From: Caballeronia calidae
GTDB lineage: Bacteria > Pseudomonadota > Gammaproteobacteria > Burkholderiales > Burkholderiaceae
Length of the DNA: 64,000 nucleotides
Assembly (NCBI RefSeq): GCF_900044055.2
Contig: NZ_FCOX02000005.1
Span: 1-64,000 of the forward strand
Reading direction: 5' to 3'
Below the pieces are notes generated by a model. That model did not search any database. It was not told the origin of the DNA and saw nothing but the letters and a program-made list of their open reading frames with translations. The translations under genes were made by a program, and so were the position numbers. This document shows positions 53,206 through 63,878 of the stretch, one piece after another (position 1 is the first letter of the stretch; every line of letters begins with the position of its first letter).

Positions 53206-55263
53206 ATGGCGAACTCCATGACGAAAAAGCTGAACGATGTATCCGTCGAAGACGACGCAACGCAAAACGCAGAGTCTGGCGCCGCTCCCGCGGCGAAGGT
53301 CGAAAAGGCCAGGGCTCGCGATCGCCGCGCGAAGGAGAAGGCGCTTCTGAAGGACGCGTTTTCATCGAGCGCGCCCGGCACCGTCGAGGAACTCGAAGAG
53401 CGGCGCGGCAAGCTGCGCGCGCTCATCAAGCTCGGCAAGGAGCGCGGCTTTCTCACCTATGGCGAAATCAACGATCACCTTCCGGACAACTTCACGGAAA
53501 CCGAGGCGATCGAAGGCATCATCAGCACGTTCAATGACATGGGCGTGGCGGTGTACGAGCAGGCGCCCGATGCCGAAACGCTGCTGCTGAACGACAACGC
53601 GCCGAACGCCTCCTCCGACGACGAAGTCGAGGAGGAAGCCGAAGTCGCCCTTTCCACCGTCGATTCCGAATTCGGCCGCACGACCGACCCGGTGCGCATG
53701 TACATGCGCGAGATGGGCACGGTCGAGCTCTTGACGCGCGAGGGCGAGATCGAGATCGCGAAGCGCATCGAAGACGGCCTCAAGCACATGGTCATGGCGA
53801 TCTCCGCCTGCCCGACGACCATCGCGGATATCCTCGCGATGGCCGAGCGCGTGCAGAACGAGGAAGTGCGCGTCGATGAGCTCGTCGACGGCCTGATCGA
53901 TCCGAACGCCGAGGACACGGACGGCTTCTCGGAGCAGGAGGCCGAGGCGATCGAGTCGGAGAACGAGGAAGCCGAGGAAGAAGGCGACGAGGAAGAGGAA
54001 GAAGAGGACGACGGCAGCGCGCAAGCCAGCGCGAACGCCGCACAGCTCGAAGCCCTCAAGCTCCAGTCGCTCGAGAAGTTCTCGCTCATCAGCGAGTGGT
54101 TCGAGAAGATGCGCCGTGCCTATGAGAAGGAAGGCTACAAGTCGAAGGCGTATCTGAAGGCGCAGGAAGCCATCCAGACGGAGTTGATGAACATCCGCTT
54201 TACGGCGCGCACCGTCGAGCGTCTGTGCGACACGTTGCGTGCGCAGGTGGATGAGGTGCGCCAGGTCGAGCGCCAGATTCTGCATACGGTCGTCGACAAA
54301 TGCGGCATGCCGCGTGCCGAATTCATCACGCGCTTCCCGGGCAGCGAAACGGACCTCGAATGGGCCGACAAGGTTGTCGCGGAAGGGCACGAGTACAGCG
54401 CGGTGCTGGAGCGCAATATTCCGGCGATCCGCGAGCAGCAACAGCGTCTGCTGGATCTGCAGGCGCGCGTCGTGCTGCCGCTGAAGGATCTGAAGGAAAC
54501 CAACCGGCAGATGGCGGCGGGCGAGCTGAAGGCCCGTCAGGCGAAGCGCGAGATGACCGAGGCGAACCTGCGCCTCGTGATCTCGATCGCGAAGAAGTAC
54601 ACGAACCGCGGCCTGCAGTTCCTCGATTTGATCCAGGAAGGCAACATCGGTCTGATGAAGGCGGTGGACAAGTTCGAATATCGCCGCGGTTACAAGTTTT
54701 CGACATATGCGACGTGGTGGATCCGTCAGGCCATCACGCGTTCGATCGCGGACCAGGCGCGCACGATCCGCATTCCGGTTCACATGATCGAAACGATCAA
54801 CAAGATGAACCGCATCTCGCGGCAGATTTTGCAGGAAACCGGCCTCGAGCCGGATCCGGCGACGCTCGCCGAGAAGATGGAAATGCCGGAGGACAAGATC
54901 CGCAAGATCATGAAGATCGCGAAGGAGCCGATCTCCATGGAAACGCCGATCGGCGACGACGACGACTCGCATCTCGGCGATTTCATCGAGGATACGAACA
55001 CGGTGGCGCCGTCGGATGCGGCCTTGCATGCCAGCATGCGCGATGTCGTGAAGGACGTGCTCGACTCGCTGACGCCGCGCGAGGCGAAGGTGTTGCGGAT
55101 GCGCTTCGGCATCGAGATGAGTACGGATCACACGCTGGAGGAGGTCGGCAAGCAGTTCGACGTCACGCGTGAGCGGATTCGCCAGATCGAGGCGAAGGCG
55201 CTGCGCAAGCTACGTCATCCGAGCCGGTCGGACAAGCTCAAATCGTTCCTCGAAGGGAACTGA
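53206..55263 (+). CDS. rpoD: RNA polymerase primary sigma factor, sigma-70
   Basis: The 685-residue protein has region 1.1 (about 60-130), [22 protein letters not shown] (region 1.2, split), a long acidic non-conserved insert with a Glu/Asp run near 245-270, then regions 2 ([31 protein letters not shown]), 3 and 4 ([20 protein letters not shown], the HTH for the -35). Preceded by its own extended -10 and followed by a terminator and tRNA-Ile2. Confidence 0.97.
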
Positions 55264-55399: not shown

Positions 55400-55476
55400 G
55401 GGCCGGAAGCTTAACTGGTATAAGCTGTCGACTCATAATCGACCGATAGTGGGTTCGAGTCCCACCCGGCCCACCA
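55400..55476 (+). tRNA. tRNA-Ile2 (anticodon CAU, lysidine type)
   Basis: A complete 77-nt cloverleaf: acceptor GGGCCGG/CCGGCCC, D-arm GCTT/AAGC, anticodon stem GTCGA/TCGAC with loop CTCATAA, T-arm GTGGG/CCCAC and encoded CCA. CAU could be Met, but C4-G69 and C5-G68 in the acceptor stem are the pairs that TilS uses to convert C34 to lysidine in tRNA-Ile2, and they differ from elongator tRNA-Met. Genomic-island sequence begins immediately 3', consistent with use as an attachment site. Confidence 0.85.
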
Positions 55477-55578: not shown

Positions 55579-55684
55579 ACCCACTAGGGCCGCTCAAGCC
55601 ACGTCCTTTACCCTCGCGGCTTTGCGGCGTATATGGGTCGTCAGCTACCCCCTTTTTTTTCTGTTCGTCGGCCCCCTAGTGGGT
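55579..55684. repeat. 11-bp inverted repeat in the island edge
   Basis: ACCCACTAGGG (55579-55589) and CCCTAGTGGGT (55674-55684) are exact reverse complements 84 bases apart. A third copy of GTGGGT lies at 55567-55572. The enclosed DNA has a run of eight T. Purpose unknown; perhaps protein-binding sites of the mobile element. Confidence 0.45.
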
Positions 55685-55739: not shown

Positions 55740-55919
55740 CGCAAGGCCGAACTTGGTGGCCAACCGACGGAGAGCGGGGCACCGCCTTACCCCTTTTTCT
55801 GGCCATTTTGTTGGCGCTTGAAAAATCAATGGCTTAGCGGCGGGGCGGAAATTTGGGTGCTTGGGCGAAAAAGGCGTTATTCTCTCGATGAATCAAGAGG
55901 ATGGTGACTGATTCGCCTA
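55740..55919 (+). promoter_or_regulatory. CRISPR leader with IHF-type site
   Basis: The 180 bases before the first repeat are richer in A/T than their surroundings. AATCAATGGCTTA (55824-55836) matches the IHF consensus WATCAANNNNTTR exactly; AATCAAGAGGATG (55891-55903) is a one-mismatch second site nearer the array. ACCCCTTTTT (55789-55798) recalls the conserved motif of Pseudomonas type I-F leaders. Distal and proximal IHF sites are known in I-F leaders and guide spacer integration at the first repeat. The degenerate repeat at the other end of the array supports this as the leader side. Confidence 0.65.
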
Positions 55920-57329
55920 GTTCGCTGCCGCGTAGGCAGCTTAGAAAATCTGGGTGAACGTGGATGACCAGACGTTCTAGTTCGCTGCCGCGTAGGCAGC
56001 TTAGAAATTGTCTCCCTCGCGTATTTCGTCCATCGCCGCGTTCGCTGCCGCGTAGGCAGCTTAGAAAAGACCGAGAAGCGGTCGGCGTTGATCACGAACG
56101 TTCGCTGCCGCGTAGGCAGCTTAGAAAGCCGACAATACACCGCCGGGGCGCATTTCGAGCGTTCGCTGCCGCGTAGGCAGCTTAGAAAGCGGTGCGGTTG
56201 TGCGCCGCCTTGATCGAGTTGTTCGCTGCCGCGTAGGCAGCTTAGAAAGAGCACGGCATGACGCAGGTGAAAGCGGATACGGTTCGCTGCCGCGTAGGCA
56301 GCTTAGAAAGCGCGTCGGACAAGCAGGTCGGACTTTCAATCGTTCGCTGCCGCGTAGGCAGCTTAGAAATTCTTCAGATAGCTCGGCTCGGGAGACTGCG
56401 CGTTCGCTGCCGCGTAGGCAGCTTAGAAATTCATCTTGTGAACGCCAGGCACGATGCGCGAGTTCGCTGCCGCATAGGCAGCTTAGAAAGAGCACGCCAC
56501 GAACGGCGCGCTGCGCTTCGGGTTCGCTGCCGCATAGGCAGCTTAGAAAAGACGCGCCAGACGCGAGAGCCGGGTAGGCGAGTTCGCTGCCGCATAGGCA
56601 GCTTAGAAATTTGAAGCTCCCCGACGCGAACGAATCCAGCCGTTCGCTGCCGCGTAGGCAGCTTAGAAATATGGGCGGAACATGGTGGGGGAGCCGCAAG
56701 GGTTCGCTGCCGCGTAGGCAGCTTAGAAAGATGAGTGCGCTCGTCGGGCTTTCATTCGACGGTTCGCTGCCGCGTAGGCAGCTTAGAAACGCGAGATATC
56801 GCCGCGATGCTCGCCGCGCACGTTCGCTGCCGCGTAGGCAGCTTAGAAAACGCCGAGGTGCGCGCCTTCCTGATCAAGTACGTTCGCTGCCGCGTAGGCA
56901 GCTTAGAAAAAGAACCATCAGAACCACCAGAGAACCATCAAGTTCGCTGCCGCGTAGGCAGCTTAGAAAATCCGCGTCGATTGACCGGGCCGTTTTACGA
57001 TGTTCGCTGCCGCGTAGGCAGCTTAGAAAATCGGTTTCGCAAAGCATGACAACTTGATCGTGTTCGCTGCCGCGTAGGCAGCTTAGAAATGTTATGACGT
57101 GCGCCACTCGCTGACCCATCGGTTCGCTGCCGCGTAGGCAGCTTAGAAAGACACGCTGACATGTCGCCGATTGACCGTGAAGTTCGCTGCCGCATAGGCA
57201 GCTTAGAAGGAACGCGCCGCGAGCCGATCGTCTGTTGCGAGGTTCGCTGCCGCATAGGCAGCTTAGAAAATGATCGTTTCGGGCCGAAGAAGCTCGATAA
57301 AGTTCGCTGCCGCATAGGCAGCTAAAAAC
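55920..57329 (+). CRISPR. Type I-F CRISPR array, 24 repeats and 23 spacers
   Basis: Twenty-four 28-bp repeats start at 55920, 55980, 56040, 56100, 56161, 56221 and 56282, then every 60 bases from 56342 to 57302. Spacers are 32 bp except two of 33 (56128-56160 and 56249-56281). The repeat begins GTTCGCTGCC, has the stem CTGCC/GGCAG with loop GCGTA or GCATA, and ends CTTAGAAA, which closely matches the Pseudomonas/E. coli I-F repeat and its 8-nt 5' handle. Position 13 is A instead of G in repeats 10-12 and 22-24. Repeat 22 ends GAAG, and the last repeat is degenerate at its 3' end (CTAAAAAC), so the leader is at the 5' side. No cas gene lies within the window on either side. Confidence 0.98.
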
Positions 57330-57815
57330 CGGAAACTGGAGTTGCGCTATTCGACGCGGCCTCGTTACCCGTGAGCGCATTCTCGAGTCTTGCCATCTCC
57401 AGGTCGTTCTGACTGCCGTCGATCCACTTGGCGTAGGTACGCAGGAACATCTCGACGGTGTGGCCGAGCTGGCGTGCGCAGAAAGCCGGCGTCATGCCGG
57501 CCATGAGCATGCTGGTCGCATAGCTGTGGCGCATGTTGTAGGGGCGGCGGTAGCGCAGTCCGAGGCGCTTCAAGATGCGCTTCCAATAGACCCGTTGAAA
57601 CGCCTCCTCGCTGTGCCAGGGCTTACCGGTACGCGGGTCCTGAAACACGCGCCCGCCCGCCACCTGTGTGAAGGCGCGTTGCCGTTGCAGCGCCGCGAGC
57701 GAGCGGCTGTTCAGGCGCACGAGGCGCGCCTCGGCCGTCTTGGTGCGGTTCTTTTCCTCCCCCGCCACCAGCACGCGCTCGATCGCGATGGTGGACTCGG
57801 GCGGCGCGTCCGGGC
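57322..57815 (-). pseudogene. Truncated tyrosine recombinase (phage/island integrase), C-terminal part
   Basis: The C-terminal catalytic portion is readable: IERVLVAGEEKNRTKTAEARLV, RRPYNMRHSYATSMLMAGM (box II Arg), ARQLGHTVEMFLRTYAKW (His and nucleophile Tyr), read as separate motifs. Upstream of about 57815 the frame stays open, but the expected N-terminal domain and the first catalytic Arg region are absent; the DNA there reads as other material. The stop codon TAG (57322-57324) lies inside the last CRISPR repeat, so gene and array overlap by 8 bases. The Tyr-containing active-site half survives, but the protein should not be functional. Confidence 0.8.
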
Positions 57816-57902
57816 CACTCGGTGCGCCGTTAGCGGGAGCGCGGCCAAATACGGCTTCGAGCGAGTGACGGGCGTCATCCATGCGCTGCCGCCAGCGCGC
57901 AG

Positions 57903-58385
57903 TCAGTTGCGGCTTGGCCGCATCGCCTGCAAGGATTTTCCGCGTGGTTCGCGAGCCTCGGCCCTGTCGCTCGCGAGACGCCGTGGGGTGTCGGCTATGC
58001 GCTCGACGATCCGCGTCCCGGCGAGCCGACGTGGCCGTCCCGCAACGGGCTGTCGGAACTCGCAAAGCGTCTTGGCGATGGTCTGTGCGCTATATTCGAC
58101 GCCCAGCCGGAGCTCGGCGCGCGCGCTATCGCGTACCTGTTTCCAAGGCAGTTCGACGCCGTGTGCGCGGCGATCGGCGCGTTCTGCGAAAACCTCTTTC
58201 GCGACTCGCGATTCGAGGCGCGCCTTCAACTGCGCGGTATCTACTTCACCGCCGCAGGCCATGCGGCTAATGCAAGCAACGCGGGTAACGACCCGGCAAG
58301 CACGGATTTCATGCTGCCCGCGCGCGGCAATGCACTGGCGGCCGCGCCCGATGAACACGCCGGGCCGTTCGTCAAGCCAAACGTC
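57903..58385 (+). pseudogene. tssM: Fragment of type VI secretion tssM/icmF
   Basis: In the plus-strand frame the DNA encodes GFSAWFASLGPVARETPWGVGYALDD, LSELAKRLGDGLCAIFDAQ, YLFPRQFDAVCAAIGAFCENLFRDSRF and [13 protein letters not shown], read as separate blocks. These match the internal part of IcmF/TssM, including the FL..LF....RG.YFT signature. No start, no N-terminal membrane segments and no C-terminal half are present; the fragment is cut on the left near the integrase remnant and on the right by the IS. Recognition is from memory of the family. Confidence 0.65.
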
Positions 58386-58387
58386 CT

Positions 58388-58936
58388 TGTTTTCTCTGCC
58401 GTGCAACCCGAGCCATTGTCAGTCAGCCATTCTATTTCCGACGGCGCCTTCAGGACGTCACCGAACCGGTTCTCAACGGCGGCCAACATGACGTCGCGCA
58501 CTACGTCACCACTGTGGCCGCCGGTCGTCGCCGCCCAGCTCATCGCTGCGCGGTCGCAGCAACCAGAGCGAACGTGACACGCAGCGGCTCGCCGTTGTCG
58601 CAACGAAACTCGAAGCCATCAGAACACCAACGCTGATTGCTTTTCGCCACCGCGACCTTGCCATCGTATCGGCGCTGAGGGCGCCGCGCCATGATTCTCC
58701 CGCTGCCGACGCAAGAGGCCCCACACACGACGGTAGCCATAGCTCGGCAGATCAACAACGGCCAATCGAATCTCTTCCACCAGACCAGCGTCGTCAGTGC
58801 TTCGGGCCGTACGTCCATCCCGCCAGTCAGCCGGCCGCGCCAGCTTGTCCGCCACATTCGAGCGCGCTACACCGAGAATCTCACAGACCTGCTTCACTGG
58901 TCGTCCTCTGGCAATGAGTGTGAGCACGCAATCCAT
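58388..58936 (-). pseudogene. IS2-group transposase OrfB, broken
   Basis: Three pieces in three frames: [23 protein letters not shown] to [16 protein letters not shown] (58750-58936), [41 protein letters not shown] (about 58570-58690, read in parts) and [23 protein letters not shown] to WLTDNGSG (58388-58565). The last holds the second catalytic Asp of the DDE set. About 25 codons are missing after the first piece, and the Glu-containing end is lost. Confidence 0.8.
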
Positions 58937-59259
58937 TTTCGCGACTTCGCTACCTCCACCGCTTCACGAAGAATCTCGTTCTCCATCGTCTTCTTCCCGA
59001 GCAGTCGCTGAAGCGCCCTGATTTGTTTCAGTGCATCGTTTAGCCCCGATGCCGGCACAACTTCCTCGCCAGAACTGACAGCCGACAGGCTACCGTCCTG
59101 ATACAGCTTGCGCCAGTGAAACAGCTGATGCGGATCGACGCCGTGCTGGCGTGCAACCATTGAGACCGACTTGCCCGGCTCGAAACTCTCCCGCAGCATT
59201 GTCAGCTTCTCTTCCGCTGACCACCGCCGCCGGCGCTCCGGCCCCGTCAACACTTCCAT
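58894..59259 (-). CDS. IS2-group transposase OrfA
   Basis: About 121 residues from [12 protein letters not shown] (an in-frame ATG at 59289 would add ten residues). [44 protein letters not shown], read in parts, is the helix-turn-helix of the IS3 OrfA family, and [16 protein letters not shown] is the leucine zipper typical of the IS2 group. Probably still translatable, but without a working OrfB it can at most repress. Confidence 0.85.
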
Positions 59260-59289
59260 CACTTCTTGTTTGTTGTTAGTCAAAAACAC

Positions 59290-62232: not shown

Positions 62233-62426
62233 CGCGCGTCGTTCCTCCGGGCACGTTCGTCGAAGCCCGCGGACGTGCCATGCCAGGCCGCGACATGATC
62301 GGCCGGGCGCACCCGCTATATCCGACCATACATCCCGCCCTATATATACGATAAGAATGTTTTGCTTTCGTGGATGCTTTTTCTGCCGCAACATGAAGTG
62401 GTTCTGAAAAGCACATGGAGCGAGAC

Positions 62427-63878
62427 ATGGACAGCACGACGGATCTGAAGCGCTACGAATTGCTGATCAACGGCGAGTTCGTTCCACCGAGCGGCGGCGA
62501 TTACTCCACGAACCTCGACCCGGCGACCGAGAACCCGATCGCTCGCGTGGCGCAGGGCACCTCTGCCGACGTGGACCGCGCCGTGCTGGCGGCGCGCGCC
62601 GCGCTCAAGCCGTGGAACGCGATCCGGGCCGCCGAGCGCGGCCGCATCCTGATGAAGCTCGGCGAGCTGCTGCGCGAAAATCAGGAAGAACTCGCGGCGC
62701 TCGAAAGCCTCGACGCGGGCAAGCCGATCGCCGGCGTGCAGCGCCAGGACGTGCCCGCTGCCATCGATACGCTCACGTACTACGCCGGCTGGTGCGACAA
62801 GATCAACGGCCAGGTCGTGCCCGCGCGCCCCGACGCGCTCACTTATACGGTGCGCGAGCCGGTCGGCGTCGTCGCGGCGATCGTGCCGTGGAACTTCCCG
62901 TTGATGATCGGCGTGTGGAAGATCGCGCCCGCGCTCGCGTGCGGCTGCACGCTGATCGTGAAACCCGCCGAAATCACGCCGCTCTCCGCACTGATGATCG
63001 GACGGCTCGCGCTCGAGGCGGGCGTGCCGCCCGGCGTGCTCAATATCGTGACGGGCAAGGGCTCGGTCGTCGGGGATTCGCTCGTCGCGCATCCGGGCGT
63101 CGACAAGGTGACGTTTACCGGTTCGCCGTCGGTCGGGCGCGGCATCCTGCAGGGCGCGGCGGGCAACTTCAAGCGCGTCACGCTGGAGCTCGGCGGCAAG
63201 TCGGCCAACGTGATTTTCGCGGACGCGAACGTCGATAGCGCAGTGCGTGCGGCCGCCTCCGGCATCTTCTTCAACGCGGGACAGGTCTGCTCGGCGGGCT
63301 CGCGCATTCTCGCCCAGCGCGCGGTCTACGACGAAGTGGTCGAACGTCTCGCCGAGCGCGCGCAGACGATCAAGCTCGGCGATCCGTCGAAGCGCGAGAC
63401 CAACATGGGCCCGCTCATCTCCGCCAAGCAGATGAAGAGCGTGCTGGATTACGTGGATATCGGCAAGGGCGAGGGCGCATCGCTCGTCACGGGCGGCAGG
63501 CGTTCGGGCGAGCGCGGTTATTTCGTCGAACCGACGGTATTCGCGAAGGTCGAGCACGAGATGCGCATCTCGCAGGAAGAGATTTTCGGGCCGGTCGCGA
63601 GCGTGATTCCCTTCGACGATGAAGCCGACGCCCTGCGCATCGCCAACGGCACCGCATACAGCCTTGCGGCGGGCGTGTGGAGCGCGGATATCGGCCGCGT
63701 GCATCGCATGGCCGCGGAACTGAAGGCGGGCACGGTCTGGGTGAATACCTACGGCTTCACGGATGTGCGTCTTCCGTGGGGCGGCGGAGGCGATTCAGGC
63801 TTCGGCCGCGAACATGGCGATGTCGCCATCGAAAACTTCACCGAGCCGAAGGCGGTGTGGGTCGCACTGACGCCCTGA
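62427..63878 (+). CDS. NAD(P)-dependent aldehyde dehydrogenase
   Basis: The 483-residue protein starts at ATG 62427, with GGAG 6 nt upstream; ATG 62415 is in frame but lacks a site. Catalytic motifs: VPWNFPLMIGVWK (oxyanion Asn), VTLELGGKSANVIF (general-base Glu) and GIFFNAGQVCSAGSR (nucleophile Cys), with QEEIFGPV downstream. It belongs to the classic ALDH (class 1/2, betaine- or indole-acetaldehyde-like) group; the natural substrate is unclear. Stands alone on its strand. Confidence 0.93.
   Translation: MDSTTDLKRYELLINGEFVPPSGGDYSTNLDPATENPIARVAQGTSADVDRAVLAARAALKPWNAIRAAERGRILMKLGELLRENQEELAALESLDAGKPIAGVQRQDVPAAIDTLTYYAGWCDKINGQVVPARPDALTYTVREPVGVVAAIVPWNFPLMIGVWKIAPALACGCTLIVKPAEITPLSALMIGRLALEAGVPPGVLNIVTGKGSVVGDSLVAHPGVDKVTFTGSPSVGRGILQGAAGNFKRVTLELGGKSANVIFADANVDSAVRAAASGIFFNAGQVCSAGSRILAQRAVYDEVVERLAERAQTIKLGDPSKRETNMGPLISAKQMKSVLDYVDIGKGEGASLVTGGRRSGERGYFVEPTVFAKVEHEMRISQEEIFGPVASVIPFDDEADALRIANGTAYSLAAGVWSADIGRVHRMAAELKAGTVWVNTYGFTDVRLPWGGGGDSGFGREHGDVAIENFTEPKAVWVALTP

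Follow-up and report, generated by a model that had tools for sequence, protein, structure and literature searches.

In type I-F CRISPR-Cas systems, Csy4 cuts the stem of the repeats, and interference is brought about by the Csy complex together with Cas2-3. An array of this type that stands apart from any cas gene raises the question of which machinery, if any, makes use of it. Such an array is present in the window, i.e., the 64-kb stretch of contig C5 of Caballeronia calidae analysed here (Table 1). An earlier note on this sequence had offered three readings of it: service in trans by a type I-F system elsewhere, a relic of a lost system, or a guide array for another effector. Very probably, the cell's own type I-F1 CRISPR-Cas system, encoded on contig C11 of the same genome, uses it in trans as a third array at a remote position.

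Table 1. Features of the window around the CRISPR array
Feature	Position	Strand	Basis
tRNA-Met (CAT)	55400..55476	+	ARAGORN; Rfam tRNA 61.5 bits
Array leader, two AATCAA boxes, CTA directly before repeat 1	55770..55919	+	Alignment with two C11 leaders and relatives
Type I-F CRISPR array, 24 repeats and 23 spacers, degenerate last repeat	55920..57329	+	Repeat search; Rfam CRISPR-DR4
Spacer 16, matching viral C5 cytosine methyltransferase genes	56850..56881	+	20-nt seed; Pfam DNA_methylase
Tyrosine recombinase piece (phage integrase family), interpreted as C-terminal part	57322..58065	-	Pfam PF00589, 29 bits, profile 55-166 of 172

The array, its leader and the neighbouring tRNA gene

The window array displays the 28-bp repeat, the Csy4 stem-loop and the period of about 60 bp by which type I-F arrays are recognized; the spacers are 32 nt long in 21 of 23 cases and 33 nt in the other two, and 23 of the 24 repeats score above the gathering score of CRISPR-DR4. 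Eighteen repeats are identical, four carry a GCATAG loop and one combines this loop with a GAAG end, while the last couples GCATAG with a degenerate end (CTAAAAAC). If either G or A is accepted at the loop base, 22 of the 24 repeats are free of mismatches, and folding of three repeat variants, including the degenerate last one, yielded the same 6-bp stem. Across the 9.6-Mb genome, the repeat pattern (up to three mismatches) gave 75 matches, all on C5 and C11, versus none for the reversed pattern used as a control; hence, the array is real and far above chance expectation, and the long, regular 24-repeat type I-F array described in the earlier note is confirmed.

The presence of a leader, likewise claimed before, is corroborated by comparison with the arrays on C11. 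Over 150 bp—which is the stretch aligned rather than a mapped boundary—identity between the C5 leader and those on C11 amounts to 61% and 58%, and all three have the AATCAA boxes and the CTA in common; as a rough floor for such values, the pre-array sequence of a related genome (G081), from which the boxes are absent, is 25–39% identical to the others. The first AATCAA box of the window leader reads AATCAATGGCTTAG and is IHF-like. In a BLAST search, window positions 55784-55903 aligned to C11:109054-109172 with E=4.8e-10, the register of the first repeat being kept; among the matches listed for the window there was none to the second C11 leader. Judged by alignment, the C5 leader can be taken as homologous to both C11 leaders, and the array is thus preceded by a leader that it shares with an array located beside cas genes in this genome.

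Upstream of tRNA-Met lies a sigma-70 gene read as rpoD (53206-55263), and the gap from the tRNA gene to the first repeat amounts to 443 bp. Similarity to the window extends beyond the tRNA to 55588-55595 in ten compared loci, two of which are from one genome, and stops at or shortly past the tRNA 3' end in most of the others. The gap and these end-points indicate that the array is close to the tRNA gene, at which the earlier note had it "lodged", yet not joined to its 3' end. On the other side of the array, the stop codon of the integrase piece falls within the last CRISPR repeat, as seen from the reading frames, and within window positions 57322-59289 the integrase piece is followed by a transposase gene of the Pfam family HTH_Tnp_1.

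A type I-F system on contig C11 and probable use of the array in trans

The genome containing the window is a 9.6-Mb draft of 379 contigs, 99.85% complete with an estimated contamination of 2.23%, so that the placement of both C5 and C11 in one cell depends on this draft assembly. Contig C11 carries the genes cas1f, cas3f, csy1, csy2, csy3 and csy4 consecutively in one operon, each scoring above its NCBIfam cut-off (Cas3f being scored as one protein), i.e., the type I-F1 set of cas1, fused cas2-3 and csy1-4. On either side, the operon is bordered by an array, one of 27 and the other of 25 repeats and both equally oriented, and the consensus repeat is identical in all three arrays of the genome. 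Genome-wide searches, carried out for csy1, csy3, csy4 and cas1, found one of each, all on C11, where cas3 and csy2 are also located. The cas search in the rest of the genome that the earlier note had proposed has, thus, led to six type I-F genes on one contig, cas6f (csy4) included, and its suggestion that the array is served in trans is supported by the complete operon and the two arrays with the same repeat. Given these, we regard the window array as an ordinary, physically separate component of a known immune system.

From what is observed, namely an identical consensus repeat, a homologous leader, a full cas set and a viral spacer match, we infer transcription, processing, loading and acquisition in the following manner. 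The window array would be transcribed from its own leader and the transcript cut by the sole Csy4 (Cas6f), encoded on C11; the crRNAs would be loaded into the C11 Csy complex, upon which Cas2-3 would be recruited to matching phage DNA. New spacers would probably be added at the leader end by the same Cas1/Cas2-3. The position of the array probably reflects the recurrence of type I-F loci at rpoD/tRNA-Met in this genus, with only the array being left at the window site.

In its CRISPR-DR4 repeat of 28 bp, its mostly 32-nt spacers and its leader, the window array resembles those of type I-F1 systems with several arrays (Cas1f, Cas2-3, Csy1-4), as does the genome with its complete operon and two flanking arrays; it differs in that the third array is on another contig and that the window has yielded no type I-F cas gene. 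With known remote arrays it has in common the distance from any cas locus and the matching system in the genome, and we know of no difference of kind from these, the rpoD/tRNA-Met site being a local detail. The apparent orphan status dissolves once the whole genome is examined and has little significance by itself; the modest value of the case is in the comparison among related species. No literature joining Caballeronia, CRISPR and type I-F was found. In a published survey (PMC12814883), at least two arrays are described as typical for type I-F, identical-repeat arrays as gaining spacers comparably at any distance, and more distant arrays as shorter in most types, type I-F among them; the remote window array has 24 repeats and those on C11 have 27 and 25.

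The rpoD/tRNA-Met site in related genomes

Among 58 genomes of the genus, the leader-end repeat pattern (up to three mismatches) is present in 11, including that of the window, and a Csy4 match in nine, that of G075 being weak (37.9 bits). Of the 11 repeat-bearing genomes, eight have Csy4, whereas G065, G077 and G081 lack it. In G075, two overlapping weak Csy4 matches (L064 and L065, G075:C56:14465-14815) are located near a contig end, and the repeat pattern is absent. The rpoD/tRNA-Met site could be located in all ten other repeat-bearing genomes, four of which have type I-F material within 25 kb of it (five of 11 with the window's own genome). In view of this recurrence, the window array is probably what is left of, or a satellite to, the type I-F loci at this site. 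Elsewhere, the distance from the site to csy4 on the same contig is about 44 kb (G071) or 140 kb (G012 and G078), or the site and the type I-F genes or arrays are on different contigs (G019, G030 and G077).

The four genomes differ in what they hold at the site. In C. concitans (G062) and Caballeronia sp. BR00000012568055 (G014), arrays and six cas genes—tblastn matches over nearly the whole length—are found on the rpoD contig, about 7–24 kb away. Beyond the cas genes of G014 come relatives of the M23 peptidase encoded in the window and of the window gene at 62415-63878, an aldehyde dehydrogenase according to Pfam; in G062, an array with the window repeat sits at the rpoD locus. C. concitans has two adjoining arrays there (L096, G062:C27:143218-149940), the repeats of which are one base apart (CTTAGAAA versus CTGAGAAA), and the rpoD-proximal one carries the window repeat. 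G081 has pieces of cas1 (99/330 aa), cas3 (369/1183) and csy1 (345/466) less than 7 kb from rpoD and, about 15 kb from rpoD, an array of nine repeats in which the repeat ends differently. In Candidatus Burkholderia humilis (G065), a leader and two repeats are retained (L100, G065:C135:25997-26081) next to an integrase piece, in the window's order, and there is no Csy4 match.

These findings bear on the possibility that the window array is a silent relic of a type I-F locus once at rpoD/tRNA-Met, the cas genes having been lost or relocated and the array having dropped out of immunity. The six cas genes at the site in G062 and G014, the pieces in G081 and the remnant without Csy4 in G065 would all suit such a history, as would the degenerate last repeat of the window array, although such a repeat is usual in working arrays. 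Against it stand the 22 of 24 repeats without mismatch, the retained leader boxes and the complete type I-F system elsewhere in the genome. Furthermore, no match to any of the six C11 Cas proteins was obtained in the whole 64-kb window (tblastn, E<=1e-3), by which a relic with cas pieces nearby is rejected and the earlier observation that cas1, cas3 and csy genes are missing from the vicinity is upheld; the same is true of tniQ, for which matches are confined to contigs C72, C29, C27 and C135. A silent array is, therefore, an unlikely explanation in our view. As applied to the locus, the word "relic" in the earlier note is partly right, because relatives hold complete or broken type I-F systems at rpoD/tRNA-Met; as applied to a dead array without any Cas protein in the cell, it is not.

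How type I-F material may have come to the site is suggested by G081. At G081:C29:176352-176377, 16 kb from the tRNA gene and beyond the array, a stretch of 26 bp on the same strand repeats the tRNA-Met 3' end perfectly, so that the broken type I-F locus (L102 and L134, G081:C29:176352-192369) is located between two tRNA-Met 3' end copies. Such an arrangement would be expected if the two copies marked the ends of a tRNA-Met island enclosing the type I-F material. In the window's own genome, a search of C5 55000-85000 with 18-40 nt of the tRNA-Met 3' end, allowing few mismatches, gave no further copy, so that an att pair is not shown up to C5:85000, and it is for this reason that an island origin of the window array is inferred from G081. 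Taking the relatives together, we tentatively propose, at odds that we would put below even, that rpoD/tRNA-Met is a standing home for type I-F loci in the genus, delivered by tRNA-Met islands, and that arrays outlive the cas genes there and are kept since they are used by a system elsewhere. If true, close species would display the stages from a complete system via an array used in trans to a collapsed remnant. Complete, broken, array-only and collapsed type I-F states are found at this one chromosomal site across related species, and they could help to date the disappearance of cas genes relative to the upkeep of arrays.

Spacers, their matches and other conceivable uses of the array

Exact seeds of 20-22 nt from eight of the 23 window spacers were looked up in viral contigs, spacer 16 being picked owing to a weak phage match; seven of the eight seeds gave no match there. 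The first 20 nt of spacer 16 occur in 28 viral contigs, three of which match over the full 32/32 nt, and in all three the gene hit contains a Pfam DNA_methylase domain. The PAM of type I-F is CC. The dinucleotide preceding the match is CC in 14 of the 28 contigs, TC in ten, CG in three and CA in one, with many of the target genes looking related and the counts, therefore, not being independent; of the full-length matches, one is preceded by CC and two by TC. Spacer 16 has no second match in its own genome at up to three mismatches.

Compared as a whole with phages (37 records) and plasmids (34 records), the array gave mostly matches that span repeats; these are read as other type I-F arrays, and two of the phage rows (H1 and H3) are annotated accordingly as CRISPR-Cas loci. 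Within a spacer, a match of 27/32 was found in a Pseudomonas phage methyltransferase gene, with CA before it. Further weak phage and plasmid matches are exemplified by H36 and H67-H71.

No spacer is common to the window and C11 arrays, so that there is no direct record of joint recent activity. Searched against the window sequence and 12 loci (L134 of G081 being outside this set), with substitutions only and up to six mismatches allowed, the spacers of the window and of C11 matched only their own places in overlapping loci. Pairwise comparison of 216 spacers of the window, C11 and the relatives, in fixed register and at a threshold of at least 22/32, gave one alike pair, inside one C. concitans array.

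The spacers also speak to the idea of an anti-cas array, whose spacers against type I-F cas genes would exclude such systems from the cell. PMC8616872 describes arrays of that sort for type I-F, namely the orphan CRISPR4 arrays of E. coli with spacers against type I-F cas genes (Almendros et al. 2016, therein), and the window array resembles these as a type I-F array without adjoining cas genes. It differs from them in that a complete type I-F system is present in its genome and that none of its 23 spacers matches the own, G062 or G014 cas loci at up to six mismatches, which makes this function exceedingly improbable.

Type I-F3 systems have their own csy genes and lack cas1 and cas3. That the window array guides a type I-F3 CRISPR-associated transposon or another effector, to which the seven TniQ matches in the genome (six of them above the cut-off) might be taken to point, has next to no chance of being correct, since TniQ is encoded on C72, C29, C27 and C135, whereas csy1, csy3, csy4 and cas1 occur singly and solely on C11, beside cas3, and Cmr2 has no match in the genome. 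A combination of TniQ with csy genes in the absence of cas1 and cas3 was, thus, not encountered; the tniQ search proposed earlier did return matches, none of them on C11, and the suggestion of another effector finds no support in the genome-wide searches, which covered type I-F genes, TniQ and the type III-B protein Cmr2. For lack of a Cmr2 match, type III-B use of the window array was likewise rejected. Of the seven TniQ matches, two each are on C72, C29 and C27, and they suggest Tn7-like or Tn5053-like elements.
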